Origin: an uncultured Clostridia bacterium
GTDB lineage: Bacteria > Bacillota > Clostridia > Christensenellales > Borkfalkiaceae
Length of the DNA stretch: 64,000 bases
Direction: 5' to 3'
Assembly: GCA_947630325.1 (NCBI GenBank)
Contig: CANRHB010000006.1
Coordinates: 41,539-105,538 of the forward strand
Shown: piece by piece, positions 40,165 to 62,361 of the stretch
Numbering within the stretch: the stretch's first letter is position 1
Layout of the letters: each line of letters opens with the position of its first letter
Notes under the pieces: generated by a model
The model's database searches: none
What the model was told of the DNA's origin: nothing
The model's input: only the letters and a program-made list of their open reading frames with translations
Made by a program: the position numbers and the translations under genes

Positions 40165-40262
40165 CGAGAGCGGACGCGCCGCGGCACCGCAGGGCTTTCG
40201 CCCTTTCGTTTGCGAACAACGTCCCGTTTCGCAACACTTAACGCGCCTTGGCTACTCTTCGG
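40165..40262 (-). promoter_or_regulatory. Tetrahydrofolate riboswitch upstream of folT
   Basis: The minus-strand leader matches the THF (folT-type) riboswitch as I know it. It begins GAAGAGTAGC and contains GCGCGTTAAGTG (40230-40241 region), ACGGGACGTTG, a variable hairpin near 40191-40205 and the closing GCGGTGCC and CGTCCGCTC. All stand in the usual order within about 95 bases. The aptamer binds reduced folates and switches off folate transport genes. The expression platform appears translational: GCCGACGA near the folT start can pair with TCGTCGGC at the aptamer's 3' edge, and the ribosome site lies in its own hairpin. Confidence 0.9.
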
Positions 40263-55603: not shown

Positions 55604-55740
55604 CAGAGGATAAACAACCACGCACTTTTAATATAATTCCCGCCGCCCGTTCGCTATATCCTGAGAGACGACAATTCACGCCGCAAGATGGCAAACAAAG
55701 AAGGCGCAATAAGTATTGCTCCCCAAGGAGGGAATCGTGA
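55600..55740 (+). CDS. Small basic protein of the element
   Basis: The protein has 46 residues, starts MTEDKQPRTFNIIPAARSLY and is rich in Arg, Lys and Gln toward the end. AAAGGAGG precedes the ATG by 5 bases. Its stop overlaps the GTG start of the next gene. It could bind nucleic acid, judging only by charge. Confidence 0.55.
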   Translation: MTEDKQPRTFNIIPAARSLYPERRQFTPQDGKQRRRNKYCSPRRES

Positions 55741-56432
55741 GAGAAAGCTTCGTTCTCTATACGGAATACGCAAAACACCTTGAGCGCCTCTCTATGGAAC
55801 AACGAGGAGAGCTCCTTACTGCCATTTTTGCGTATCAAATGGGTAACAAAATCACTAAACTCGACGATATTACGGGAATGGCGTTTGATTTCATTTCTTC
55901 CCAGCTTGACCGAGACAACCTAAAGTACGACGAAACCTGTCGCAAGCGTTCAAAGGCGGGAAAGCTTGGTGGCCGTCCTAAAAAAGTGGTGCCAGTCGAA
56001 AAGCAAGTGGAAGCAAAAAAAGCAAATGGTTTTTCTGAAAAGCAAGTGCAAGCAAAAAAAGCTGATAATGATAATGAAGATGATAATGAAAATGCAGATG
56101 AGAATGATGATGTCAGCGAGAAAAGGCCCACCCTCCCTCGAAAGAAATTTGTTCCCCCTACGCTTGATGGAATAGAAACCTATTGCGCCGAGAACGGCTA
56201 TCACATAGATGCACAGCATTTCATCAGCTACTACACAGCAAACGGGTGGAAGGTCGGGAAAAACCCAATGAAGGATTGGCAGGCGGCCGTGAGAATGTGG
56301 GCAATGCGAGACGCTCATGGCGGCGGCTTTTCAAAGCGAAACGACGGAGACATCCTCTCCGACGCGGTAGAGGCTTGCAGACGGTATGAATGGGAAGAAG
56401 GAGGCGGCGGAGATGTCGGAGTCTTTGGATAA
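55737..56432 (+). CDS. DUF6291-type / replisome-organiser-like protein
   Basis: The protein has 231 residues. The N-terminal domain (about 1-80) carries ESFVLYTEYAKHLERLSMEQRGELLTAIFAYQ, as in DUF6291 phage proteins. A Lys/Gln/Asp-rich linker follows, with a strongly acidic stretch (DNDNEDDNENADENDD). The C-terminal part (about 150-215) has YCAENGYHIDAQHFISYYTANGWKVGKNPMKDWQAAVRMW, common at the end of phage replication-initiation (DnaD-like) proteins. It starts with GTG after AAGGAGGG. It is probably the element's replication initiator; the origin was not identified. Confidence 0.75.
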   Translation: MRESFVLYTEYAKHLERLSMEQRGELLTAIFAYQMGNKITKLDDITGMAFDFISSQLDRDNLKYDETCRKRSKAGKLGGRPKKVVPVEKQVEAKKANGFSEKQVQAKKADNDNEDDNENADENDDVSEKRPTLPRKKFVPPTLDGIETYCAENGYHIDAQHFISYYTANGWKVGKNPMKDWQAAVRMWAMRDAHGGGFSKRNDGDILSDAVEACRRYEWEEGGGGDVGVFG

Positions 56433-57015
56433 ATCGGATATTGTAAAAATCATCACGCTTATTCGCGTCAATTTTGAGAACGCATATCCATGCAGGGGGG
56501 AAGCCTTTGATCTGCTTGTAGAAAGTTGGTATAGCATACTGAAACCATATCATCGAGCAGTTGTTTTTGAGGCGACAAAGCGGTCCTTGACCCACTCCGA
56601 ATTTGCGCCACGCATTGGAAACATTGTGAATGAAATCGAACGCATGACGTCGGCAATCGGGAAAAGCGATGTCGATCTTTGGGTCGAGCTTAACGGCGTC
56701 CTTTGTGAAACATACCGGTGCCGACATACCCTTCATTGTAACTTTCGGGAAGATGACGGTTTGACGCAAGGAGAGAAAGCCGCCGCCCGTCTCGAAGAGA
56801 TATTCAACGGTCTCTCAGAAGAAGTACGGGAGTACGTCGGTAGCGTTCACCATCTTTGCGTAATAGCCGAATACGACGAGGAACAACTCTCCATGGAGAA
56901 AGGACGCTTTTTTCGCACTGTGCCGGCGCTTCGGGAACGTGTCCGCACAAAGAAGGAACTCCCGCAGAACGTCCTCGCTCTCCTTGCGCCGACCACAAAA
57001 GCACTCCCGAACTAA
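56413..57015 (+). CDS. Replicative helicase loader/inhibitor-like protein (G39P type)
   Basis: The protein has 200 residues. MSESLDKSDIVKIITLIRVNFENAYP and LLVESWYSILKPYHRAVVFEATKRSLTHSEFAPRIGNIVNEIERM resemble the N-terminal domain of SPP1 G39P-type helicase-loading proteins. The C-terminal half is helical. The start at 56413 has AAGGAGG 8 bases upstream and overlaps the end of the initiator gene by 20 bases. With the preceding gene it forms a replication module that recruits the host helicase. Confidence 0.75.
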   Translation: MSESLDKSDIVKIITLIRVNFENAYPCRGEAFDLLVESWYSILKPYHRAVVFEATKRSLTHSEFAPRIGNIVNEIERMTSAIGKSDVDLWVELNGVLCETYRCRHTLHCNFREDDGLTQGEKAAARLEEIFNGLSEEVREYVGSVHHLCVIAEYDEEQLSMEKGRFFRTVPALRERVRTKKELPQNVLALLAPTTKALPN

Positions 57016-57214
57016 GCAGGAGGCAGCAATTAGGAGAGGCGCTTCTAAAACAACTTTTTTGCAACATCCCCATTATTTACGGAGCCTCTAAAAATGGGCT
57101 TTTTCGGAGCGAATAAAAAAAGGCGTCCCGCAAAAGCAAAAGACCATTCGCAGAAGGCGTTACTCACGCGGGACGGGACAATGGCCGCCACCGCAAACCA
57201 CGGAAGGAGCATTT

Positions 57215-57565
57215 ATGCTCGAAGACACAAAAAAAATAGTGCTCGCCGCCCTTTGCGGGTACGGCACGATAAAGCGGATAATCAGAAGCGGTCAACCTAT
57301 CGACAGCTTGGTGGCACAGATCAATAGCATTATCCTTTCCGGAGAACAACTTCTTTCAGCCGCAAAAACAGTGGAAGATACCCTTCTTTATTTTTACCTC
57401 AAGGACGAGTCTCAAGGCCAATTTATAGAATTTTACTTCTTCAAGCGCATGGGTTGGGTCGAGATTACACACAAAATCGGCATCTCCTATTGCACCGTGC
57501 AGAATTGGAGAAGGGAAGCAATCAAAATTGCAACGAGAGCCGCCCGTAGAAATGGGCTATTATGA
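57215..57565 (+). CDS. ArpU-like phage transcriptional regulator
   Basis: The protein has 116 residues. The C-terminal HTH resembles sigma region 4: FIEFYFFKRMGWVEITHKIGISYCTVQNWRREAI. Such proteins activate late genes in phages and related elements. The ribosome site is GGAAGGAG. The 200 bases before it hold no convincing gene. The assignment is based on size, position and HTH only. Confidence 0.65.
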   Translation: MLEDTKKIVLAALCGYGTIKRIIRSGQPIDSLVAQINSIILSGEQLLSAAKTVEDTLLYFYLKDESQGQFIEFYFFKRMGWVEITHKIGISYCTVQNWRREAIKIATRAARRNGLL

Positions 57566-57989: not shown

Positions 57990-58382
57990 TTACTTTCCGA
58001 CGATAGCCAATAGCGCTTGCTGAAGCGTCGCGGAGAAATTAACGTGTTGCGCTTCCGCCCTGCGATTGAGCCACGCTGGAATGGTGCAGTTCTTTCGCAC
58101 CGCCTTGTTATCCTCTTTTTCCCGATAGGCGGTAAAGTCTACGTCAACAAGTGCCACGAGCTCATTGTCCGCCGCCTGAGGCTTATAAGTTGAAGGTGCA
58201 GGGATCTCCTTCCCCTCATCTTCGAGACAGATCCCGAGCAATCCGATTGCATCACGCGCCATATAGAGCGCATCGCCAAGGCTCGTCCCCTCGGTATTCG
58301 TGTCAAAATCGGGGATATAAATGAGATAAAACTCTCCTTCTTTTTTGGGCGGTGTAATCACGATAGGATATACAGCTTTCAT
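57990..58382 (-). CDS. hicB: HicB-family antitoxin
   Basis: The protein has 130 residues. The N-terminal HicB fold (about 1-75; YPIVITPPKKEGEFYLIYIPDFDTNTEGTSLGDALYMARDAIGL) neutralises the toxin. The C-terminal ribbon-helix-helix-like part (NCTIPAWLNRRAEAQHVNFSATLQQAL) binds DNA. The start at 58382 follows AAGGAGG. It lies 10 bases behind hicA, toxin first, as usual. Confidence 0.92.
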   Translation of the reverse strand: MKAVYPIVITPPKKEGEFYLIYIPDFDTNTEGTSLGDALYMARDAIGLLGICLEDEGKEIPAPSTYKPQAADNELVALVDVDFTAYREKEDNKAVRKNCTIPAWLNRRAEAQHVNFSATLQQALLAIVGK

Positions 58383-58392
58383 ATTGACCTCC

Positions 58393-58566
58393 TTACTGAA
58401 GATTGTTTCGCTTGATAATCGCCTTGGCCAGCATTTCGGCAATCTCATTGTGGCACGGAATCGCTTCGACCTTTTTCCCGTTGGTGTAGACAGTGTGGTT
58501 CGCGCCCTCCCGCAGTAATTGCCAACCGTTACGCTCCAGTAGCTTTATCAAGTCTTTCCTCTTCAT
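58393..58566 (-). CDS. hicA: HicA-family mRNA interferase toxin
   Basis: The protein has 57 residues. KRKDLIKLLERNGWQLLREGANHTVYTNGKK contains the catalytic His of the dsRBD-like fold; PCHNEIAEMLAKAIIKRNNL completes it. HicA cleaves mRNA when not bound by HicB. The start at 58566 has GAGG 8 bases before it. A near-perfect promoter with an internal palindrome precedes the pair. Confidence 0.92.
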   Translation of the reverse strand: MKRKDLIKLLERNGWQLLREGANHTVYTNGKKVEAIPCHNEIAEMLAKAIIKRNNLQ

Positions 58567-58588
58567 AGTATCAACCTCTGACAATTAT

Positions 58589-60880: not shown

Positions 60881-61585
60881 CTAAGTAATTGAATGACGAT
60901 ATATGTTTCCTACTTCTTTGATTGGAACCACTCCAACGACACTAACGTTTTCCCTATTTATTCTTGCCTCATTTGAATAGTTTTTGACTTGACCGGTTTT
61001 AATGCTTTCGGTTAGACCTTGAATATCATAGTAATTTATAAAAAAGTCATAAGCATTTACCCGAACAATAACTATACATGGAATAGAAATTTTTCTTAAC
61101 GATTGACCAAGCGCAACTTTTTCAGCTGTTTTGTCCCTAAATTGATTATCGTAAAAACAATACAGACTTTCCCCGCCCCAATTACGCAGGAACACCGTAT
61201 TGCCATGATATAGGTTTACTCTGCCAATATCAAAATAAATCATGTTATGAGAGCGCTTATTCGATTTTACGAATTGTTTTAGTTGAAACTTGAACTCATC
61301 AAATTCGGTCGGTAATTGATCTATTTTCTTACTGTAATCTGCAAAATTGTCGCTATGTAATCCCCTTTGTTCTATATCCCGAATTTCCCATTTCATTAAG
61401 CGTGTGAAATGGACACCGACAACATTGTAACTGTTCTCGTAAAAATAATTGGGGAAGTTATCTTCGTCAAAATCTTTTATACTAATTTCTTCAATCAATT
61501 CTTTTGGATAAGTTCGAATATCATTAAGAATAATATCATTTTTTGAAAAAAACTCCATAGGAAACTTACTTAAATCTATATACAT
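60881..61585 (-). CDS. Hypothetical AT-rich protein, possible ART-like fold
   Basis: This cytosolic-looking protein has 234 residues. The stretch VVGVHFTRLMKWEIRDIEQRGLHSDN and the later LYHGNTVFLRNWGGESLYCFYD faintly resemble the His and hydrophobic blocks of ADP-ribosyltransferase-like or RES-type domains. I cannot confirm a family. The start at 61585 has TAGGAG six bases before it. Base and codon use are far more AT-rich than in the surrounding chromosome, which suggests horizontal origin. It is divergent from a structured RNA gene and lies beyond the element's attR. Confidence 0.6.
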   Translation of the reverse strand: MYIDLSKFPMEFFSKNDIILNDIRTYPKELIEEISIKDFDEDNFPNYFYENSYNVVGVHFTRLMKWEIRDIEQRGLHSDNFADYSKKIDQLPTEFDEFKFQLKQFVKSNKRSHNMIYFDIGRVNLYHGNTVFLRNWGGESLYCFYDNQFRDKTAEKVALGQSLRKISIPCIVIVRVNAYDFFINYYDIQGLTESIKTGQVKNYSNEARINRENVSVVGVVPIKEVGNIYRHSIT

Positions 61586-61682
61586 TGACATCTCCTAATC
61601 TAAAAAAATTGGCTTGCCCTAATTTTCCATATCTAAGCTATAAACAAAAAAGCAAAAAACAAAACAATTTTGTGCACAAATC

Positions 61683-61711
61683 TTGATTTAGCGATGAAAC
61701 TATGCTATAAT
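61683..61711 (+). promoter_or_regulatory. Promoter of the structured RNA
   Basis: TTGATT (61683-61688), 17 bases, TATAAT (61706-61711) preceded by TGC (extended -10). The expected start is at 61718, exactly where the long RNA stem begins. Confidence 0.8.
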
Positions 61712-61717
61712 ACTCAT

Positions 61718-61875
61718 GCGACATAAATTTCATACCTTTCAGGGAAACTACACTTTGGCAGAAGTGTATCTTTTCCGCATTCATATTTTCCTGAAGGGTA
61801 TTTATGTAAATTTGTGTCGCAACAAAGCGGGATGAGCATTCTGTATGCCGTCCCTTTGGGGCGGCATTATTTTTA
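61718..61875 (+). ncRNA. Predicted 158-nt structured RNA of unknown class
   Basis: The RNA starts GCGACATAAATTT (61718-61730), which pairs with AAATTTGTGTCGC (61808-61820). Further pairing TTTCAGGGAAA with TTTTCCTGAAG extends the rod to nearly 30 bp with bulges. An apical hairpin TACACTT/AAGTGTA closes it. A terminator follows (61845-61867, ATGCCGTCCC/GGGGCGGCAT, then TTATTTTT). Several G-U pairs exist only in the plus-strand RNA. The rod shape is loosely like 6S RNA, but I do not recognise a known family. It lies between two unknown AT-rich genes. Confidence 0.7.
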
Positions 61876-61920
61876 GTAAAAATTAAATGAAAAAAAATTT
61901 TGATAGCAAAAGGAGAAGCC

Positions 61921-62361
61921 ATGATCGAAATTGGAGAAAATTACTATTTGATAAATAAGGACGAAATTACAAATGATATGGAGCCCCTGGCAGATGGGCT
62001 ATATAGATTGGGTGAAAATTTTTATGAAATAATCGGTAATAAAGACGATAATTCTATTTCATCACAAAGTTCAAACAAAAAGCAAGCAGATACCATAACA
62101 TCAAACAATTATCCGACCATTTTCTTTATCCTTAGTGTATTATTGCTTGCATTTACTGTGCTTTGCATTTATTTAGGAGTAAATAACATAGTCAATTATG
62201 AACAAATCATAAATCAAAGCAACCAATTAGGCACAGTGGGAGAAATGGTTGTGGATAATGTGAGTAGTCTCCTTCGAGACGGTGTATTGTGGATATTGGG
62301 CGGAGTGGCATGTTTGATTTTAGGTAGCATTTTATCTTTAATTTATAATTCTCAGGAATAA
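61921..62361 (+). CDS. Hypothetical protein with two membrane helices
   Basis: The protein has 146 residues. The N-terminus has two copies of a short beta motif (IGENYYLINKDE, LGENFYEIIGNKDD), then a polar Ser/Asn/Gln linker and two membrane helices (about 71-92 and 120-142) joined by an outside loop. A good ribosome site (AAAAGGAG) stands 5 bases upstream. It is AT-rich like its neighbour at 60881 and starts 45 bases after the structured RNA's terminator. No family is recognised. Confidence 0.7.
   Translation: MIEIGENYYLINKDEITNDMEPLADGLYRLGENFYEIIGNKDDNSISSQSSNKKQADTITSNNYPTIFFILSVLLLAFTVLCIYLGVNNIVNYEQIINQSNQLGTVGEMVVDNVSSLLRDGVLWILGGVACLILGSILSLIYNSQE

Follow-up and report, generated by a model that had tools for sequence, protein, structure and literature searches.

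A large family of leader RNAs with a terminator and a predicted competing antiterminator helix in Clostridia

The window analyzed here is a stretch of 64,000 nt from a contig of an uncultured Clostridia bacterium of the Borkfalkiaceae. It contains an AT-rich island (60881-62361) in which a structured RNA lies between a divergent open reading frame (ORF) and a gene for a small membrane protein. An earlier reading of the letters by themselves (the sequence-only reading) treated these as three parts of a possible regulatory, defence or toxin-antitoxin module. Is the RNA one part of such a module, a small RNA in its own right, or the leader of the gene behind it?

Results

The RNA lies between a promoter and a membrane-protein gene

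The island has the following features, in window coordinates:

61683..61711, plus strand: sigma-A-type promoter (read from the sequence)
61683-61688, plus strand: -35 element, TTGATT, with a 17-nt spacer to the -10 element
61706-61711, plus strand: -10 element, TATAAT, with an extended TG at 61703-61704
61717..61876, plus strand: leader RNA, matched by covariance models R1 and R2 (131 bits with R2)
61911..61915, plus strand: Shine-Dalgarno sequence AGGAG of the putatively regulated gene (read from the sequence)
61921..62361, plus strand: gene for a 146-amino-acid membrane protein behind the leader, whose two membrane helices are predicted from hydrophobic stretches that we judged by eye
60881-61591, minus strand: ORF of 236 amino acids, preceded by a Shine-Dalgarno sequence and divergent from the RNA

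The start of transcription expected from the promoter, at about 61718, is also where the first paired bases of the RNA lie, as the sequence-only reading had stated. The expected transcript runs from about 61718 to 61874 (~158 nt). The RNA folds at -64.8 kcal/mol, compared to a mean of -33.9 kcal/mol for shuffled sequences (z = -8.6; none of 200 shuffles was as good). In this fold, about 30 bp are formed between the 5' and 3' ends, followed by an intrinsic terminator that is part of the minimum-energy structure. The GC content is 0.327 for the island and 0.405 for the RNA alone versus 0.535 for the window, which bears out the claim that this region is unusually AT-rich. Overall, the promoter, the ~158-nt RNA, the terminator, the two ORFs, and the island were all confirmed; the minus-strand protein is present as described, and has 236 amino acids instead of 234. 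What did not survive is the view of the RNA as a separate third part, as it sits between the promoter and the Shine-Dalgarno sequence of the membrane-protein gene and points in the same direction. This layout suggests that the RNA is the leader of a single transcription unit that includes the gene.

The three parts do not occur together in other genomes

A three-part defence or toxin-antitoxin module, made of the minus-strand protein, the RNA, and the membrane protein, would fit the adjacency of the parts in the window and their GC content, which is below the window's. Their distribution across genomes contradicts it. Among 101 genomes (the relatives and the window's own), the minus-strand protein was found in two (its own and, as a 63-residue remnant, G023) and the membrane protein in three (its own, G040, and a remnant in G023), as compared to matches to the RNA in 79 of the 103 genomes of the genus. 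When the RNA was used as the query of a DNA search, nine of the 101 genomes matched, its own included, some of them over short stretches only. Furthermore, G040 has the RNA and the membrane gene without the minus-strand ORF: the block that it shares with the window (61703-62361; 80% identical) begins in the -10 region and extends through the membrane gene, and it encodes a membrane protein that is 65% identical to the window's behind the same RNA. In G005, only the -10 element and the RNA are shared (91% over about 194 nt), and a gene for an Mrr-type nuclease follows. The PADLOC models for defence systems matched neither protein. The 3' parts of the minus-strand ORF and of the membrane gene adjoin in G023 (locus L003, about 1360-1954), where the RNA and both 5' parts are missing. 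This juxtaposition of the two remnants is a point in favor of the module, and could reflect either a deletion or an assembly fault. We consider such a module highly improbable; of the roles that had been proposed for it, the regulatory one is probably right for the RNA.

The two proteins themselves have few relatives. For the minus-strand protein, we found none in Pfam, PHROG, PADLOC, or PDB and none in phages or viral contigs; there are weak matches (27-31% identity) on three sphingomonad plasmids, to proteins annotated as hypothetical, and one aligned plasmid protein shares a stretch with it (FLRNWGGESLY / FFRFWGGESLY). The membrane protein matches no Pfam family and has one weak PHROG match, of unknown function (E = 0.001).

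The RNA belongs to a large family

With a covariance model built from nine sequences (R1) and a threshold of E 0.01, we obtained matches in 79 of 103 genomes in the genus (as many as 13 in a single genome) and none in the other 24. R1 also had matches in 93 of 396 genomes sampled across the order, in 32 of 142 genera. We then rebuilt the model on 54 sequences (R2) and searched a sample of 391 genomes of the class with it; at E 0.001, there were matches in 81 genomes and in 49 of 222 genera. Among 299 genomes drawn from the phylum, the window's own genome was the only match to R2; this search doubles as a false-positive control. All of the genomes searched belong to one phylum, and the large searches lose weak matches because of stricter filters and because few candidates were scored per genome.

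Several genomes have seven or more copies. In the window's genome there were 12 matches at E 0.05, of which seven were below 1e-9 and one was an antisense echo. Such echoes arise because the rod formed by the RNA is nearly palindromic. We left antisense rows out of the locus sets (23 of 77 in one set and 3 of 24 in another), and the match counts per genome in the genus, order, and class searches may include them, so the 13 matches in G008 are an upper figure. Counted by distinct places, G008 and G002 have seven listed copies each. Overall, this is a large family of putative on/off leaders, often with several per genome, in many Clostridia; so far it has been seen in dozens of genera of one class of bacteria.

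Copies are also found on records of viral origin. A human-faecal record that is labelled as an unverified phage carries one, and of 14 predicted viral stretches that had been picked out by pattern, 13 have one model match each, with several of these being identical. In five loci (L056, L066, L081, L095, and L133), two units stand in tandem, each with promoter, RNA, and terminator and mostly with differing P1 helices.

The covariance search of Rfam that had been proposed as a check gave no match for the window's RNA, either to 6S RNA, which the sequence-only reading had named as an identity that would refute it, or to any other family. The structured RNA is real, and it has a promoter and a terminator of its own. 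At the gathering scores of Rfam 15, nothing matched at the element in the window or in 38 homologous loci (18 + 20), including the c-di-GMP riboswitches (GEMM-I and c-di-GMP-II) and T-boxes. The neighbouring matches listed were tRNAs, a tmRNA, and one Gut-1 RNA upstream in L084. With a permissive threshold, the hits for three members were far below the family cut-offs: the best was to an animal microRNA model (E = 0.012), and neither c-di-GMP riboswitch matched these members. For the window's RNA (E up to 10), 6S RNA and T-box gave no match either. We also found no description of the RNA in literature searches, whose coverage leaves out most subscription journals and preprints, or in the available parts of PMC11109978, PMC7266159, PMC11477304, and PMC8632094. 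Based on these searches and on Rfam 15, the family is apparently undescribed and likely to be new.

Helices and covariation

The structural elements of the leader are as follows, where AT is the antiterminator helix:

61717..61730, plus strand: 5' strand of P1, paired with 61808-61821 (covariation and permutation tests)
61808..61821, plus strand: 3' strand of P1 (covariation)
61732..61747, plus strand: 5' strand of P2, paired with about 61786-61801 (permutation tests)
61749..61768, plus strand: P3 hairpin, 61749-61755 with 61762-61768, loop UGGCAG (covariation and permutation tests)
61823..61832, plus strand: 5' arm of AT, CAAAGCGGGA, paired with 61851-61858, with a bulge here (covariation and permutation tests)
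61831..61844, plus strand: P5 strand in the AT loop, complementary to the loop and 3' strand of P3
61839-61844, plus strand: core of P5, UUCUGU, with GCAGAA at 61758-61763 (duplex of -11.1 kcal/mol in the window; coordinates worked out from the dot-bracket line of the duplex prediction)
61845..61874, plus strand: intrinsic terminator, made of AUGCCGUCCC (61845-61854), a loop, GGGGCGGCAU (61858-61867), and a U-rich tract

P1 comprises 14 bp from the first transcribed bases, P2 is variable and strongly paired, and P3 completes the rod. Counting from the closing strand of the rod, the order is P1, one base, AT, the terminator, and the gene. The promoter is part of the arrangement: among 89 homologues, the -10 element agrees at five or more of six positions in 83, the extended TG is present in 80, and the -35 element agrees at four or more of six positions in 77. 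The conserved unpaired bases are an AUA at the junction of P1 and P2 (82 of 89; in the window, the 5' strand of P2 begins within it) and GGYA in the loop of P3 (61 of 89).

In an alignment of 54 sequences (fitted to model R1), 26 of 31 base pairs change on both sides: 11 of 14 in P1, all seven in P3, and 8 of 10 in AT. None of 500 shuffles equaled this. In addition, 93.8% of the cells form pairs, and this drops to 33-44% if the partner is slid by 1-3 columns. P1 occurs as GCGACA, GCUACA, GCGUCA, CCAAAU, ACCACA, and other variants, with matching changes on the opposite strand. When we ranked all pairs of columns of this alignment that were at least 75% canonical, pairs from P1, P3, and AT filled the top ten; a few pairs that fit P5 appeared lower down, among noise. 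A structure-blind MAFFT alignment of nine sequences has two-sided changes in 9 of 31 pairs, a number reached in 3 of 500 shuffles, and its covariation score was reached by none of 500 shuffles; the number of pair types in this alignment was not above that of the shuffles (379 of 500 were as high).

Permutation tests, which ignore the kinship between sequences, gave a similar picture. With 107 sequences, P1, P2, P3, AT, and P5 were each matched by none of 20,000 permutations (P3 could not be excised from the other 9 of the original 116 sequences), and with 89 sequences the same was true of the terminator. The non-redundant set has five sequences, which is too few to say much. Another candidate pseudoknot (P4), which we had spotted by eye in several sequences, was poorly supported overall (z from -0.9 to -3.5) and was rejected.

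The terminator and P5 are predicted to compete for parts of AT and P3

When we folded the 3' fragment of 80 homologues, the terminator took three to seven bases of the 3' arm of AT in every one of them. In the window, the shared bases are 61851-61854 and 61858. The median energies are -15.0 kcal/mol for AT and -16.5 kcal/mol for the terminator, and the terminator is the stronger of the two in 56 of 80. This overlap in all 80, together with the covariation of AT, indicates that AT and the terminator are mutually exclusive as predicted structures.

P5 would link the AT loop back to the rod. Across 107 sequences, the AT loop pairs better with the P3 strand of its own RNA (-8.5 kcal/mol) than mixed pairs do (-6.2 kcal/mol; 0 of 20,000). 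Among 27 distinct sequences that were collected after we had the idea, 83 of 20,000 permutations did as well, which is weaker than for the other helices. As controls, the 5' strand of P3 with the AT loop showed no excess over mixed pairs, and the 3' strand of P2 with the AT loop showed a slight excess (-4.7 versus -4.3 kcal/mol; 506 of 20,000), so relatedness adds a little to the permutation result. P5 has a median of about 10 bp, starts from the end of the 5' arm of AT, and ends a median of 8 nt before the 3' arm; it mostly reaches two bases into the 5' arm, an overlap that the search window allowed. In 63 of 80 homologues, it avoids the arm of the terminator. These distances would fit a stacked H-type pseudoknot of P5 and AT. 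Since a single strand would have to serve both P5 and P3, there are two possible global states of the RNA.

Genes downstream of the leader

For 96 of 102 copies of the RNA, an ORF that is on the same strand and is preceded by a Shine-Dalgarno sequence begins within 400 nt; it begins within 100 nt for 85 and within 60 nt for 77. The exceptions are six copies without such an ORF and another 11 for which it lies beyond 100 nt. Under a stricter rule for ORFs, 67 of 84 copies have one within 100 nt on the same strand, as compared to 7 of 84 that have a divergent one.

The RNA stands before many unrelated genes, and the downstream set is very diverse. By a crude hydropathy script (raw counts, with no background rate), the 80 distinct proteins that are encoded within 130 nt downstream include 30 lipoproteins and 7 zinc-ribbon proteins; 16 have an N-terminal hydrophobic segment, 8 are membrane proteins of other kinds, and 19 fall into none of these classes. 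We compared 75 of them to Pfam and NCBIfam, leaving out five that were doubtful, very short, or near-duplicate (L040, L045, L060, L082, and L113). In Pfam, the matches were to BspA-type leucine-rich repeats (21 proteins), zinc ribbons (8), collagen repeats (4), and DUF6273 (4), with single cases of subtilase, M23 peptidase, alpha-amylase, LicD, ABC ATPase, SPFH, Mrr nuclease, EcsC, and PASTA. We also read 21 further copies from four genomes (G008, G002, G029, and G134): 12 are before lipoprotein-type ORFs, 2 are before zinc-ribbon proteins, and 3, all in G029, precede an 88-amino-acid protein. The leader thus often fronts genes for surface lipoproteins and membrane proteins.

One type of protein, of 344-347 amino acids, follows the RNA in the genome of the window and also on contigs that are predicted to be viral (L069 1685-2725, L103 664-1695, and L107 1209-2249). 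It has no PHROG match in these three and no Pfam match in L069 or L103.

Discussion

A proposed switch

From these computed features, we infer switching, its direction, and a ligand. Transcription would start at the first base of P1, and the nascent RNA would fold into the P1-P2 rod capped by P3. RNA polymerase would then make a region with two possible fates, the terminator or AT, as the AT helix would use part of the 5' arm of the terminator. The AT loop may pair (as P5) with the 3' strand of P3, which would give that strand two competing partners, and P5 and AT could stack as an H-type pseudoknot. We favor a scheme in which a ligand or factor would stabilize the pseudoknotted AT (ON) against P3 and the terminator (OFF). 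In the window, the leader would control the 146-amino-acid membrane protein.

Given its structure and position, the RNA is likely to be a cis-acting transcription attenuator of some kind. Its modular placement before unrelated genes and the specificity of the model in the phylum sample also speak for this. The great diversity of the downstream genes, the copies that lack a close gene, the tandem units, and the 24 genomes of the genus with no match speak against it. Among attenuators, an orphan riboswitch class is the likeliest, with a probability of about 0.5: a new and abundant class that would sense a signal and set a surface-protein regulon by a three-strand exchange, with the capping hairpin and the AT loop competing for one strand. 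The regulon would include BspA-type repeat proteins, lipoproteins with His/Cys repeats, and membrane proteins with zinc ribbons, and the signal would not be c-di-GMP in genomes that lack GGDEF. The leader's 5' position on the strand of the gene, its conserved, covarying structure, and its predicted, mutually exclusive AT and terminator are features of this kind of RNA.

Alternatives

The choice between antiterminator and terminator could instead be made in trans by an RNA-binding protein, which is a possible but less likely form of attenuation. The broad and diverse set of genes would suit such a regulator, as would the length of P1 and its mostly conserved sequence, since protein-binding sites can look like this. 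P1 base pairs change on both sides, however, so the sequence of P1 is not read strictly. We searched for two kinds of protein that might play this role. CAT_RBD, the RNA-binding domain of LicT/BglG-type antiterminators, was found in none of the 103 genomes of the genus, versus 4 of 14 control genomes. Of the 103 genomes, 92 have a single NusG match, one has two partial pieces, and in 10 none was found; as NusG is single in most, no paralogue like LoaP is seen.

That the leader is a stand-alone small RNA gene, which is upstream of other genes only incidentally, seems unlikely. The promoter and the terminator frame the RNA exactly, the terminator is within the minimum-energy fold of the window's RNA, and there are complete units in tandem, all as expected for such a gene. 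The strong preference for a nearby gene on the same strand argues against it, as does the block of -10 element, RNA, and gene that is shared with G040; also, a covarying AT that competes with the terminator would have no obvious use in a stand-alone RNA. Attenuation by ribosomes that translate a leader peptide would likewise involve a terminator and an antiterminator, but just 10 of 89 leaders contain an ORF of at least eight amino acids that is preceded by a Shine-Dalgarno sequence and ends within the leader. Five of these 10 ORFs read VSQQ..., which is simply the conserved sequence of the P1 3' strand and the AT 5' arm. We give leader-peptide control very little weight.

Relation to known regulatory RNAs

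In C. difficile 630, 12 class I and 4 class II c-di-GMP riboswitches are predicted, and riboswitches of this kind control adhesins, according to PMC11477304. This makes c-di-GMP the obvious analogy for the leader. Like the leader, these riboswitches (GEMM-I and c-di-GMP-II) are multi-copy and are associated with genes for adhesins and other surface proteins, and they act as transcriptional switches, as the leader is predicted to do (as described for the riboswitches in PMC11477304); unlike them, the leader has no match in Rfam. Furthermore, GGDEF, the only diguanylate cyclase family that we searched for, was found in 21 of the 103 genomes (20 over the cut-off). Some carriers of the RNA, such as G040, have it, and we did not find it in the window's genome or in the RNA-rich genomes G008 and G002. 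The evidence argues against control by c-di-GMP, by a LicT-type protein, or by a NusG paralogue, which leaves another ligand or another protein.

In the fluoride and ZTP riboswitches, a pseudoknotted RNA competes with a terminator by strand displacement. The leader resembles them in its predicted competition between pseudoknot and terminator. It differs in its long P1-P2 rod that begins at the first transcribed base, in its genes, in lacking an Rfam match, and in having an AT loop that carries a copy of the 5' strand of P3. LicT/SacY (which acts on RAT sequences) and LoaP also set an antiterminator against a terminator in a leader near the promoter; in this genus, CAT_RBD was not found and NusG was not found duplicated. 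6S RNA is a long rod that is closed by its own ends. Unlike 6S RNA, the leader has several copies per genome, is linked to genes, and has the AT helix.

Widespread orphan regulatory RNAs have in many cases revealed new signals or metabolites. This leader is present in several copies per genome and often precedes proteins that are displayed to the surroundings. Knowing the signal that is sensed would make the control of the surface of these little-studied bacteria directly testable. The arrangement of P3, P5, and AT also points to exact mutations that can be tested.

Other features of the window

The window contains three other elements of note. A THF riboswitch (RF01831; 68.7 bits) lies at 40165-40261 on the minus strand. 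Genes at 55716-57565 (plus strand) match the phage families PHROGs 15768, 9804, and 36 and are perhaps the remains of a mobile element. At 57990-58584 (minus strand) there is a HicA/HicB-like toxin-antitoxin pair (Pfam PF07927 and PF15919).
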